Below are positions 35,486-43,558 of a stretch of 64,000 nt of DNA, one piece after another; the stretch's first letter is position 1, and every line of letters starts with the position of its first letter. Source of the stretch: Gemmatimonadales bacterium (GTDB lineage Bacteria; Gemmatimonadota; Gemmatimonadetes; Longimicrobiales; Gaopeijiaceae); contig REEG01000148.1 in the NCBI GenBank assembly GCA_007695195.1, positions 1-64,000 of the forward strand, in the 5' to 3' direction. The notes beneath the pieces were generated by a model. It was not told the DNA's origin. It ran no database searches and saw only the letters and a list, made by a program, of their open reading frames with translations. Both the position numbers and the translations under genes were made by a program.

Positions 35486-35770
35486 ATGAACAAGTCCGAG
35501 CTCGTGGATGCCCTGTCCGAACACGCCGGCATGACCAAGGCCCAGGCCGGAGAGGCGATCGACGCGCTCTTCGACACCGACAAGGGCATCATCGCGGGCG
35601 CCCTGGGGGCGGGGAAGCGGGTGCAGATCACCGGATTCGGGACCTTCGAGACCAAGGAGCGGAAGGCTCGCACCGGTCGGAACCCCCGCACCGGTGAGAC
35701 CATCGAGATCGCCGCCACCAAGACCCCCGGATTCCGGGCGGGCAAGGGGCTGAAGGACGCGGTGAAGTAA
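35486..35770 (+). CDS. hup: HU-family DNA-binding protein
   Basis: This 94-residue protein is a typical HU/IHF fold. MNKSELVDALSEHAGMTKAQ forms the helical start, VQITGFGTFETKERKARTGR is the signature beta arm, and NPRTGETIEIAATKTPGF holds the proline-tipped DNA-intercalating loop. A GAGGAG box precedes ATG 35486. HU compacts the nucleoid. An insertion (FDTDKGIIAGALGAG) is longer than in E. coli HU. It ends in a strong terminator. Confidence 0.95.
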   Translation: MNKSELVDALSEHAGMTKAQAGEAIDALFDTDKGIIAGALGAGKRVQITGFGTFETKERKARTGRNPRTGETIEIAATKTPGFRAGKGLKDAVK

Positions 35771-35891: not shown

Positions 35892-37559
35892 TCAGCGGCT
35901 CGGTGGGCCCTTCCTGCGGGGTCCGCCCGGACCCCGGTCCCGGCCACCCCCAGGCCCACGGTCCCGGCCACCCCCGGCACCCCGCTCCCGGGGACCACCT
36001 GCGCCACGGTCGAAGTCCACCCGGACGCTGCGGCCCCGAATGGAGGTTCCATTCAGCGCCTGGATGACCTTTCCGGCGACCGTATCGGCCACTTCCACCC
36101 GGGCAAAGGTGTCCCGGATGTCGATGCGGCCCACCTGCTCGCCCTCAAGCCCCGCCTCTCCGGTGATGGCTCCCAGGAGATCGCCCGGGCCCACCCCATC
36201 CCGGCTCCCGACACTGAGGAAGAGTCGGGTGAAGGCAGGCGGCCGGGGTCGAACCGACGGTGACTGCGCCAGCGTCCCCTCGGCTGTACCCGATGAAACG
36301 GCTGCGGCCGAGGCGGCGGGACGGATGCCCCGATCCCTGAGGAGTGCGGCCAGGGCCGCCGCCACCTCCACCCCGGACCACTCCTCGAGGAGGGGCTCGA
36401 GTAGGGTCGTATAGGCAGCCAGGTCACGGGTCTCCAGGGCCCCCCGAATCCCGTCCCGGAAGGTGGTGATCTCGCTGTGGGACGGAGTCTGTGGGGAGGG
36501 GAGGGGGCGGAGGCGATAGCCGGCCTCGCGAGCGAGTCGTCGGAGGTGGGGGAGTTCCCGGGGTTCGGCGACGCAGACCGCCTGTCCCCGACGGCCCCCA
36601 TGGCGCCGGTCCAGGGTGTCGGTGTCCAGGGGAAGGTCCAGGGACACCGTTGCCACCCGCTCCGGAGTGATCCCCGCCTCATCGATTCGCTTCCGGTCCG
36701 ACAGGGCGTCGAGTCCCAGCCAGACCGGTGTATTCGGATCTCCCGGCATTCCCGCCACGAAGCCGTGGAGCGTGAGGAGATCACCGGCGTCGGCGGCTCG
36801 GTCCTCGGAGCGGCAGAAGAGGAGCACGTGGTGGATCTCCTCATCCAGGAGGCGATCCACCAACCCCACCGGATCCCGCAGGATATCGGGTCGTTCCACC
36901 ACGTGGAGATGGATGTCCCCCCGTTCGACGGGCGCGGCGGCCGCATCGTCTCCGGCGGCCTCCGAGGGCAGGAAAACGGCGCGGCGAAGGTTGGCATCCA
37001 CCCATTCTCGCACGGCCGGGGTGAGGGGGTCGGCCACCACGATTCCCTGCCAGCCCTCGGATTCCGCGGCTTCCAGGATGAGTTCGATCCGGGCCGGTCC
37101 ATCCCCTTCAAGAAGGAAACCGGCACCATCCAGGACCAGCGCGTCCAGGCCGTCCAGCTTGACCTCGGCGGCCCGGACCGCGGCGCTCAGGTCTTCCGGT
37201 GTCGCCACCAGAAGGTCGGCGTGGCCGGGGAGGGCCCAGCCAGGGGCCAGCGCCGCACAGCGGTGACCGGTGGCCAGTCCCAGCCGGGCCAGCGACCGGG
37301 CGATGGCCACGGCCGATTCGGCGGTACTGGTAAGGACCACCCCCGCCGGCCGGCCTCCGCCGGCTTCAAGGCGAGTCAGGAGGGCTGTACCGTAGGCCAC
37401 CATCGCGCCGGCTCCCGGGCCCGCGCGAAGCACCGCCGGATTTCCCCGAACAAGGACGGGGATGGCATCGGCTTGAAGTCCCGAGGGGACTTCGATGCCC
37501 TCGGCGGCGAGGGCCTCCAGCAACTCGGGGCCGAGGCCCAATTGGTCGAACGAATCCAT
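35892..37559 (-). CDS. DEAD-box-like protein with dead ATPase motifs and DbpA RNA-binding domain
   Basis: The 555-residue protein is laid out like a DEAD-box helicase. It has a Q-motif region (Gln29, GLQADAIP), RecA-like domains and, near 440-515, a DbpA-type RNA-binding domain (TRLFLSVGSRDGVGPGDLLG, then GRIDIRDTFARVEVAD). An RGG-like tail rich in Gly/Arg/Pro follows. But the catalytic boxes are lost. Walker A reads AGPGAGAMV (no Lys), motif II reads LDGAG instead of DEAD, motif III reads ADP in place of SAT, and motif VI reads DRRHGGRRG. It should bind RNA without ATP-driven unwinding. AGGA lies before ATG 37559. Confidence 0.85.
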   Translation of the reverse strand: MDSFDQLGLGPELLEALAAEGIEVPSGLQADAIPVLVRGNPAVLRAGPGAGAMVAYGTALLTRLEAGGGRPAGVVLTSTAESAVAIARSLARLGLATGHRCAALAPGWALPGHADLLVATPEDLSAAVRAAEVKLDGLDALVLDGAGFLLEGDGPARIELILEAAESEGWQGIVVADPLTPAVREWVDANLRRAVFLPSEAAGDDAAAAPVERGDIHLHVVERPDILRDPVGLVDRLLDEEIHHVLLFCRSEDRAADAGDLLTLHGFVAGMPGDPNTPVWLGLDALSDRKRIDEAGITPERVATVSLDLPLDTDTLDRRHGGRRGQAVCVAEPRELPHLRRLAREAGYRLRPLPSPQTPSHSEITTFRDGIRGALETRDLAAYTTLLEPLLEEWSGVEVAAALAALLRDRGIRPAASAAAVSSGTAEGTLAQSPSVRPRPPAFTRLFLSVGSRDGVGPGDLLGAITGEAGLEGEQVGRIDIRDTFARVEVADTVAGKVIQALNGTSIRGRSVRVDFDRGAGGPRERGAGGGRDRGPGGGRDRGPGGPRRKGPPSR

Positions 37560-37593: not shown

Positions 37594-37896
37594 TCACTCG
37601 GGGTCGCCGGAGCCGCGACCCCCCTGGTCGCCGGGCTCGTAGGGAAGCCGATTCAGGAACAACTGGATCTCGTAGTCCATCCGGGACGTACGCAGCTGGT
37701 CCGTCTGGGCGACGACCTCCGTGTACATGGAGTGTCGATGGGCATGGAGGGATACGGTGCCCTCCTTCCCCGAATAGGTGGCGCCGTGACCCGATGCCTT
37801 GGTCCGATCGAGACCGAGGCGGTCCGGAAGGAGGCCTTCCGCCTCCTTGAGCACCTCGGCGGGAGACGCCGCCGTCTTTCGTACGTAACCTGCCAT
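37594..37896 (-). CDS. Small uncharacterised protein
   Basis: The 100-residue protein has AAGGAGA ten bases before ATG 37896. It is hydrophilic and mixed-charge (PAEVLKEAEGLLPDRLGLDR, then SLHAHRHSMYTEVVAQTDQL, then DYEIQLFLNRLPYEPG). No domain was recognised. The middle reads as beta strands between two helices. It starts five bases after the stop of the DsbA-like gene and is followed after 34 bases by the helicase-like gene, so a three-gene operon is likely. Confidence 0.7.
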   Translation of the reverse strand: MAGYVRKTAASPAEVLKEAEGLLPDRLGLDRTKASGHGATYSGKEGTVSLHAHRHSMYTEVVAQTDQLRTSRMDYEIQLFLNRLPYEPGDQGGRGSGDPE

Positions 37897-37901
37897 GGAA
37901 T

Positions 37902-38654
37902 CTACTCTCCTTGCGCTGGGGGCGATTTTCGCGACGACGGGAACGGTTCGGGGGCCGCCCCGGGATGGTCCGGCGGCATGCCGGGAGCGGTGGGTGTCGA
38001 TCCCGGCCCGGCCGTGAGGATGAAGGAGCGGAGGGCTTCAATGCCGGAGAAGCCCTCAAGCCGCCGGTCCTTCCCGATCAGGGTGGGGACACCTCGCACC
38101 CCCTGGCGCAGGGCATGGGATCGGGTTTCTTGTACGGCCGGCGCGAATCGGTCGACTCCCAGGACGGCGTGGACCTCGGATCGGTCCAGACCCGCCTCCT
38201 GGGCCAGGGTCACCAGGACATCCACACGACCCAGGTCCAGGCCCTCCTGAAAGTGGGCGCGGAAGAGGCGGTGGTGGAGCGTCGTGGCGCCGGCCCCGTC
38301 GCCTCCCGTTCGTTCCTGAGCATGGAGGGCGAGTTCGTGGGCCTTGCGGGTCCAGGGAATCAGGGTCGGTGTTCGGAACGGGATGTGCACCGTGCTGGCC
38401 ACTTCCATCAAAGCTTCCGTCATCTCCTGCCAACGAGGAGACTGGGGATCCTGCAGGGGCCGGGGGGGTGGACAGAGTTCCAGCGGGCGATAGATCACGT
38501 CCAGAGCTGGACCCGCGGTGTCGGCGAGGGCTCCACGGAGAATCTCGTGGACCAGGTAGGATCCAGGGTCCACGAAGTCGAAGTAGAAGAAGATTCGATC
38601 TGAACTCAACGCGCTCGCAGGGGATGACCACCGCAGTGGTGCGATCCCGTCCAT
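37902..38654 (-). CDS. DsbA/FrnE-like thioredoxin-fold protein without CxxC
   Basis: The 250-residue protein opens with RIFFYFDFVDPGSYLVHEIL, where FrnE/DsbA enzymes have FDxxCPWC-type active sites; here the cysteines are replaced (VDPGSYL). The helical insertion and GVRGVPTLIG, the conserved cis-proline loop, are kept. A serine at this place also occurs in the related 2-hydroxychromene-2-carboxylate isomerases, so an isomerase or glutathione-binding role is possible. It has no signal peptide. A low-complexity Pro/Gly/Ala tail follows. Redox activity is unlikely. Confidence 0.72.
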   Translation of the reverse strand: MDGIAPLRWSSPASALSSDRIFFYFDFVDPGSYLVHEILRGALADTAGPALDVIYRPLELCPPPRPLQDPQSPRWQEMTEALMEVASTVHIPFRTPTLIPWTRKAHELALHAQERTGGDGAGATTLHHRLFRAHFQEGLDLGRVDVLVTLAQEAGLDRSEVHAVLGVDRFAPAVQETRSHALRQGVRGVPTLIGKDRRLEGFSGIEALRSFILTAGPGSTPTAPGMPPDHPGAAPEPFPSSRKSPPAQGE

Positions 38655-42240: not shown

Positions 42241-42274
42241 GACGTCCGGCGTGGGAGCGTCCCACGCCGGCGTC
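42241..42274 (+). ncRNA. 15-bp hairpin in the helicase mRNA leader
   Basis: Bases 42241-42256 and 42260-42274 pair in a 15-bp stem with one bulged T (42245) and a GCG loop. It lies directly after the -10 box and about 18 bases before the ribosome site of a DEAD-box helicase gene. No T-run follows, so it is not a standard terminator. It fits a cis-acting leader that the helicase itself could resolve. Confidence 0.6.
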
Positions 42275-42301
42275 CCGAGGGTACCCAGAACGGAGTTGAA
42301 C

Positions 42302-43558
42302 TTGACCGAGGTAACGACATTTCAGGCCATGGGCCTTTCGCCCGAGCGCCTGGCAGCCATTGAAGCACTTGGGTGGACCGATCCCACCCCCATCCAGCGC
42401 CGAGCCATTCCCGAAGCGACCGGGGGAAAGGATGTGGTGGGGATCGCCCAGACGGGGACCGGGAAGACCGGCGCCTTCATGATTCCATCGCTGGAAAAGG
42501 TGGAGCCGGGAAAGGGCATGCAGGTGCTGGTACTCTGCCCGACCCGGGAGCTTGCGCAGCAGGTGGCCGAGGATAGCCGCCACCTGTCGCGGGGCACTTC
42601 CCTCCGCATCGCCGATGTGGTGGGAGGGGTGAGCTACGATCAGCAGATCGAAGCGCTCCGGGGCGGGTGGGAGGTCATCGCCGCCACGCCCGGCCGCTTC
42701 AACGACCACATGGAGCGGCGGAACGTGGACCTCTCCAGCCTGAAGGTGCTGGTCCTGGACGAGGCGGACCGTATGCTGGACATGGGATTCCGGCCCCAGA
42801 TCGAGGACGTCCTGCGCCGGAGTCCGCAGAATCGGCAGACCATGCTCTTCTCGGCCACCATGCCCAACGGGGTGCATGCCCTGGCGCTCCGGATTACCAA
42901 GGACCCCTTCTGGGTCGAGGCGACGCCCGCCGGGACAGTGGCGGAACTCATCGAGGAGCGGGTCTATACAGTGAAGCCCGGGAAGAAGCCGGACCTTCTC
43001 CTCCACCTTCTGGATGAACCGGGGTGGGACCAGGTTCTGGTCTTCACCCGGACCAAGTCCGGAGCCGACTCGGTGAGTGGCCGCCTCACGGTAGCCAATG
43101 TGGGGACCGAGGTCATGCACTCGGATCGCCGGATGCAGCACCGGGTGCGGGCGCTGGACCGCTTCTCCACCGGCTCGGTGCGGGTCCTTGTGGCCACCGA
43201 TGTGGCCCAGCGGGGCCTCGATGTGGAGGGGATCTCGCATGTGGTGAACTACGACGTGCCCACCGACCCGGAGGACTATGTGCACCGGATCGGCAGGACC
43301 GGTCGGGCCGGATCGGCTGGAACCGCGGTGACCTTCGTTACCGCGGCGGAGCTCGGGTACCTTCGGTCCATCGAGCATCGCCTGGGGCGCAATCTGGAGC
43401 GGGTATCGCTGGAGGAGTTCGACTATGCCGGCGAGTCCCACGCCGCCAGCGGCAGGGATCGCCCTAAGCACCCGAGAAGTCCCGGCGGCATTGGAACCCG
43501 CTCGGCCAAGGACCTGAGCGACGAGGAGTTGCAGCGTCTCTTGGGGTTCTCCAAGTGA
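42302..43558 (+). CDS. DEAD-box ATP-dependent RNA helicase
   Basis: TTG 42302 has GGAG seven bases upstream and keeps the Q-motif phenylalanine (TTFQAMGL), giving 418 residues. All helicase motifs are intact: TPIQRRAIP (Q), AQTGTGKT (49-56), PTRELAQQ, TPGR, VLDEADRML (DEAD 153-156), FSAT, VFTRTKSGAD, VLVATDVAQRGLDVEG and YVHRIGRTGRAG. The tail is short and lacks the DbpA domain, unlike the dead paralogue at 35892. RhlE/CsdA-like; it should remodel structured RNA in ribosome assembly or cold. The leader carries a hairpin. Confidence 0.92.
   Translation: MTEVTTFQAMGLSPERLAAIEALGWTDPTPIQRRAIPEATGGKDVVGIAQTGTGKTGAFMIPSLEKVEPGKGMQVLVLCPTRELAQQVAEDSRHLSRGTSLRIADVVGGVSYDQQIEALRGGWEVIAATPGRFNDHMERRNVDLSSLKVLVLDEADRMLDMGFRPQIEDVLRRSPQNRQTMLFSATMPNGVHALALRITKDPFWVEATPAGTVAELIEERVYTVKPGKKPDLLLHLLDEPGWDQVLVFTRTKSGADSVSGRLTVANVGTEVMHSDRRMQHRVRALDRFSTGSVRVLVATDVAQRGLDVEGISHVVNYDVPTDPEDYVHRIGRTGRAGSAGTAVTFVTAAELGYLRSIEHRLGRNLERVSLEEFDYAGESHAASGRDRPKHPRSPGGIGTRSAKDLSDEELQRLLGFSK

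Follow-up and report, generated by a model that had tools for sequence, protein, structure and literature searches.

A gene on the minus strand of the window, the 64,000-nucleotide stretch of Gemmatimonadales bacterium DNA analysed here (contig REEG01000148.1, positions 1 to 64,000), encodes a pseudohelicase that is kept by selection and whose age reaches to the depth of the class Gemmatimonadetes. Its DEAD-box-like core is stripped of catalytic motifs, while a DbpA-type RNA-binding domain (RRM) is retained. We favor, at a probability of roughly 0.6, a role as a stand-alone, RRM-guided RNA or RNP scaffold for which ATP hydrolysis is not needed, with rRNA as the most plausible target.

Domain architecture and motif state

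The coordinates of the gene given in the first-pass annotation of this DNA are correct, and its frame lies on the minus strand. The gene and the parts of its product are located as follows:

35892..37559, minus: pseudohelicase gene, 555 aa plus stop; open frame with ATG at 37559 and TGA ending at 35892
36960..37559, minus: RecA1-like pseudo-domain, ~residues 1-200; Pfam DEAD 7e-6, pLDDT mostly >90
37401..37424, minus: remnant of motif I, AGPGAGAM (residues 46-53), in which Lys and Thr are gone
37119..37130, minus: motif II remnant DGAG, residues 144-147, replacing DEAD; from the motif alignment
36492..36944, minus: RecA2-like pseudo-domain, ~residues 206-356; from the alignment, pLDDT mostly >88, without Helicase_C match
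36324..36479, minus: helical dimerisation-domain remnant, ~residues 361-412; Pfam DeaD_dimer 5.3e-6, residues 363-408
36018..36227, minus: DbpA-type RNA-binding domain (RRM), ~residues 445-514; PF03880 match
35895..36008, minus: Gly/Arg-rich tail, residues 518-555; from sequence composition

The RRM is matched by PF03880 at 86.5 bits (cut-off: 25.6; e-value: 2.3e-25 to 1.2e-24). The Pfam DEAD match is barely significant (26.3 bits; cut-off: 26), the DeaD_dimer match (26.8 bits; cut-off: 23) is weak or missing in some orthologs, and no Pfam Helicase_C match was obtained in the window protein. Two RecA-like domains are present in the predicted AF2 model, as compared by Foldseek against the PDB (mean pLDDT: 86; RecA blocks mostly >90; low only in the linkers and tail), and the best matches of this model among solved structures are E. 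coli DbpA (E: 4.4e-23) and CshA (E: 4.6e-20). In Longimicrobiales-type members the median Arg/Gly/Lys fraction of the tail is 0.56.

The Walker A lysine, the glutamate of the DEAD motif, the SAT motif, motif V and both arginine fingers are all missing from the window protein. The remnants that had been read from the sequence in the first-pass annotation, AGPGAGAM for motif I, LDGAG for motif II, ADP (from SAT) for motif III and DRRHGG for motif VI, were all recovered; furthermore, motif Ia has changed from PTREL to STAES, and in the alignment motif IVa is wholly deleted (~16 residues gone) and motifs V and VI are degraded. The earlier statement that all motifs are degraded is slightly too strong: it holds in this protein for motifs I, Ia, II, III, IVa, V and VI, but residues F4 and Q29 of the Q motif are still present, and the GxGKT of motif I persists in two of the lineages discussed below (f3 and f9). 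Its overall description as a DEAD-box-like pseudohelicase with an intact DbpA-type RRM and a Gly/Arg tail is borne out by Pfam and the motif alignment. Two helicases of the same genome served as controls and carry every motif, namely the RhlE-like helicase at 42251-43558 and, on another contig, a DeaD+DbpA paralog (L002; G000:C66:9209-10849). The latter is an intact DeaD/CshA-like helicase with a dimerisation domain and a DbpA RRM, and is the only other DbpA-domain protein in this genome. Most sister genomes within its family seemingly lack a counterpart of L002.

DbpA itself, to which the protein had initially been related, does not qualify as parent. The window protein scores 103.5 bits against the NCBIfam DbpA model (NF008744), far under its cut-off of 524, and an origin as a pseudo-DbpA is rejected in view of the DeaD/CshA-like architecture and paralog. 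To our knowledge, E. coli DbpA lacks a matching dimerisation domain. The remnant dimerisation domain and L002 instead point to an ancestor that looks DeaD/CshA-like, with a helicase core, dimerisation domain and RRM.

Conservation of the RNA-binding domain

The RRM shows a median identity of 60% among the dead proteins and 58% among the active ones, and is 53% identical between the window protein and L002, the cores of which share 30 and 21%. In YxiN and Hera, guanine is read by the main-chain amides of a V/I-G-x-I/V loop (PMC3695512), the counterpart of which aligns in the window protein as V476-G477-R478-I479, with G477 and I479 invariant in the family alignment. The loop uridine is contacted by K427 of YxiN (PMC3695512), a position occupied by G467 in the window protein. 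Judged from these alignments, RNA binding by the RRM is likely. Specificity for 23S helix 92 is not claimed here, given the replacement of K427 by G467 and the fact that the active paralog has the same guanine-binding backbone loop as the dead protein.

Shared motif losses among orthologs

Orthologs are present in 55/57 related whole genomes of the order (31-66% identity), while a scan of named genomes returned 80 loci that, a few MAG titles excepted, are titled Gemmatimonadota or Longimicrobiales. Four MAGs titled Gammaproteobacteria (loci L063, L071, L079 and L095) carry the pseudohelicase gene together with the Gemmatimonadota gene order, and these titles are probably misassigned. Related dead copies are spread over the class Gemmatimonadetes, and the matches listed for a phylum sample all fall within this class. 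A DbpA-domain match was absent from families f5 and f8 (four genomes).

Comparison with orthologs, as had been proposed at the outset, revealed losses common to all of those examined in Longimicrobiales. The motif II glutamate is found in 0/134 scored members of this order and either arginine finger in 0/155 family members, none of which has HRxGR, whereas all scored motifs are intact in 11/11 active DeaD+DbpA paralogs; the loss is therefore not due to chance. Within the order the Q motif retains its F in 131/134 and its Q in 134/134 members, the motif I glycines G49 and G51 are invariant in the family alignment, and the Walker A lysine is present in 8/134 members; in f9 it is present in 5/6. 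In f3 (Longimicrobiaceae-like) and f9, GxGKT is present and motif II is already gone, while in f1, f2, f4, f6 and f7 both Walker A and motif II are gone, motif II of one f4 member excepted. This member of the dead family (L141, genome G079) carries the string DEAD at motif II without any other catalytic motif, perhaps by chance or reversion. We read this pattern as a graded decay in which the common ancestor lost motifs II, IVa, V and VI and the loss of Walker A followed, perhaps more than once.

Descent and selection

Two trees, built by a quick method and rooted on RhlE-like sequences, unite all dead proteins in a single clade (SH-aLRT: 100) apart from the active DeaD/CshA-like paralogs, the support for the active clade being weak (30-87) and the stem of the dead clade so long (0.87-0.97) that separate origins could be hidden by it. 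Families f1, f2, f3, f4, f6, f7 and f9 each fall on one side of a branch, which fits the expectation for vertical descent. One active and one dead copy are found in each of eight f6 and f7 genomes.

Pairwise dN/dS values (Nei-Gojobori; dS <1.6) are ~0.08-0.31 for the whole protein, mostly 0.08-0.33 for RecA1 and mostly 0.04-0.5 for RecA2. The RecA2 domain and the dimerisation remnant change fast, and the median core identity is 41 and 34% among dead proteins against 68 and 69% among active ones. With open frames and dN/dS <1 in all domains, the gene does not behave as a pseudogene. A single decayed copy is excluded as an explanation by the class-wide losses and purifying selection, as is a sequencing or frame error by the open frame in many independent assemblies. 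The view that a decaying duplicate is heading for loss would accommodate the disappearance of all enzymatic motifs and the fast evolution of RecA2, but is highly improbable in the face of frames that are open class-wide, dN/dS values that lie well under 1 for each domain and a class-deep retention that exceeds that of the active copy.

Gene neighborhood

Four neighboring genes in the window are relevant to the context of the pseudohelicase gene:

37594..37896, minus: orf100, conserved 100-aa protein; upstream and co-directional, at 77/80 named loci
37902..38654, minus: DsbA-like thioredoxin-fold gene, leading the presumed operon; PF01323 2.3e-22
35486..35770, plus: HU-type DNA-binding protein, convergent neighbor; PF00216 3.9e-32
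42251..43558, plus: RhlE-like active DEAD-box helicase without RRM; all motifs intact

In the window, 34 bases separate orf100 from the pseudohelicase gene and five bases separate the DsbA-like gene from orf100. Across the named loci the gap between orf100 and the pseudohelicase gene has a median of 13 bp and is ≤60 bp in 70/77, and a DsbA-homologous ORF occurs at 73/80 loci. The linkage of orf100 is tight in f1 and f2 and is not universal, as the two genes are separated in most f3 loci. The orf100 product shows a mean column identity of 63% (60 members) and a predicted fold of strand-helix-four strands-helix (pLDDT: 88). It has no Pfam or NCBIfam match, nor any other profile match, and its model returned no significant match against the PDB (best E: 5e-3).

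The complete helicase that had been remarked upon at a distance of 5 kb is indeed a conserved neighbor with intact motifs but has no RRM; across loci the gene lies ~3-7 kb off, and its synteny holds in most of those whose length suffices to reveal it. Its annotated GTG start adds ~20 residues ahead of the conserved domain start, and from the sequence the true start may lie further downstream.

Relationship to the active paralog and proposed function

Among the 57 related genomes, 21 encode two DbpA domains, 33 encode one and three encode none. Where there is only one, it belongs by position to the dead protein in 32/33 genomes; in the exception, G044, the dead copy is cut at a contig end. Likewise, only the dead copy was found in several f6 genomes. 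In G026 and G029 no DbpA-domain protein other than the dead one was found either, and as each of these genomes is a single contig, a missed second copy is unlikely there. The dead copy is kept more often than the active one, which argues that its main role is independent of an active DbpA-domain paralog, the count covering DbpA-domain proteins and leaving room for a link with other helicases. Persistence in genomes without an active DbpA-domain copy also suggests a job done without a motor, and the function is probably one that needs none.

We propose that, early in the history of the class Gemmatimonadetes, a DeaD/CshA-type helicase with a DbpA-type RRM was duplicated. Of the two copies, one would have lost the catalytic glutamate, motifs IVa and V and the arginine fingers, together with the Walker A lysine in most lineages. 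The pair of RecA-like folds, a helical domain resembling the dimerisation domain, the RRM and the basic tail would have been retained in this copy. Structured RNA would then be bound via the RRM and the Gly/Arg tail independently of ATP, and the RecA pair and helical domain may form a rigid surface for protein docking or RNA ordering in an RNP. The target might most plausibly be ribosomal, since rRNA is the ligand for which DbpA-type RRMs are best known, and gene linkage makes the orf100 product a candidate partner. A scaffold role, already suggested in the first-pass annotation, fits a conserved pseudohelicase with shared losses.

The inhibition of DbpA that had been offered beside this role is unlikely, as 32/57 genomes lack any other DbpA-domain protein and the only one here is L002. 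A broader form of this idea, in which the dead protein tunes the active DeaD-like paralog by competing for RNA through the RRM or by forming mixed dimers, gains from the co-occurrence of both copies in this genome and in 21/57 relatives, from the similarity of the two RRMs and from a still detectable dimerisation remnant. It is nevertheless rather unlikely, since the genomes that lack a second DbpA-domain protein include single-contig ones, several f6 genomes show the dead copy alone, and the dimerisation segment is only 21% identical to that of L002. Proximity of the RhlE-like gene in most loci of sufficient length could also indicate an adaptor, the dead core recruiting this helicase, or a helicase or nuclease of a degradosome-like complex, to RRM-bound RNA; the two genes are, however, divergent with unrelated metabolic genes between them, and the linkage is lost in f3 loci L106 and L108, which makes such an adaptor unlikely. 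The Q-motif F and Q present order-wide and the GxGKT of f3 and f9 would suit a protein that binds but does not hydrolyse nucleotide and changes shape on RNA. Such an ATP-binding switch is possible in the f3 and f9 lineages, judging by their motifs, but decidedly unlikely as a general explanation, since the Walker A lysine is missing, along with motif V and both arginine fingers, from the window protein and from the large majority of the order. Beyond the scaffold role itself, it is a tentative suggestion that the protein is a lineage-specific ribosome- or RNP-assembly factor, parallel in function to the eukaryotic Utp25, and that the protein has outlived its parent enzyme and works with the orf100 product.

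Comparison with known systems and significance

The pseudohelicases identified by a literature search were eukaryotic Utp25 and Deinococcus PriA; neither a bacterial DEAD-box pseudohelicase nor the Gemmatimonadota family turned up in it. Utp25/Def is a pseudohelicase of the eukaryotic SSU processome that is essential in ribosome assembly and can do without what remains of its motifs Ia and VI (PMC9539457). It may be regarded by analogy as the nearest functional precedent: its DEAD-box fold is predicted to be kept, its catalytic motifs are gone and it is conserved over a long time, although it is eukaryotic and has a disordered N-terminal region, and a DbpA-type RRM is not described for it (PMC9539457). 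A ribosomal role is established for Utp25 and is putative for the window family. PriA of Deinococcus radiodurans is without ATPase or unwinding activity, keeps nucleic-acid binding and shows motif loss phylum-wide (PMC4504706). It is likewise a bacterial helicase-family protein with motifs lost across a large clade, but it acts in DNA replication restart, is not of the DEAD-box type, and is a dead ortholog rather than a diverged paralog (PMC4504706).

Among active enzymes, L002 and Thermus Hera share with the window protein two RecA folds, a dimerisation domain and a DbpA-type or similar RNA-binding domain (for Hera: PMC3695512), but keep all catalytic motifs, the core being only 21-30% identical to the dead protein. 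DbpA and YxiN resemble it in the RRM, with E. coli DbpA as the best sequence and fold match, but are active enzymes specific for 23S helix 92, and the window protein falls far short of the DbpA model threshold.

Pseudohelicases are seldom described, and here a class-wide family is found with its lineages frozen at differing stages of loss, providing a natural experiment that can tell which portions of a DEAD-box protein count when no ATP is hydrolysed. The family also serves as a warning, as automated annotation would label such proteins as DbpA or as helicases. Should the bound RNA be ribosomal, the pseudohelicase would represent an assembly factor specific to its lineage, in a phylum that has been little studied.
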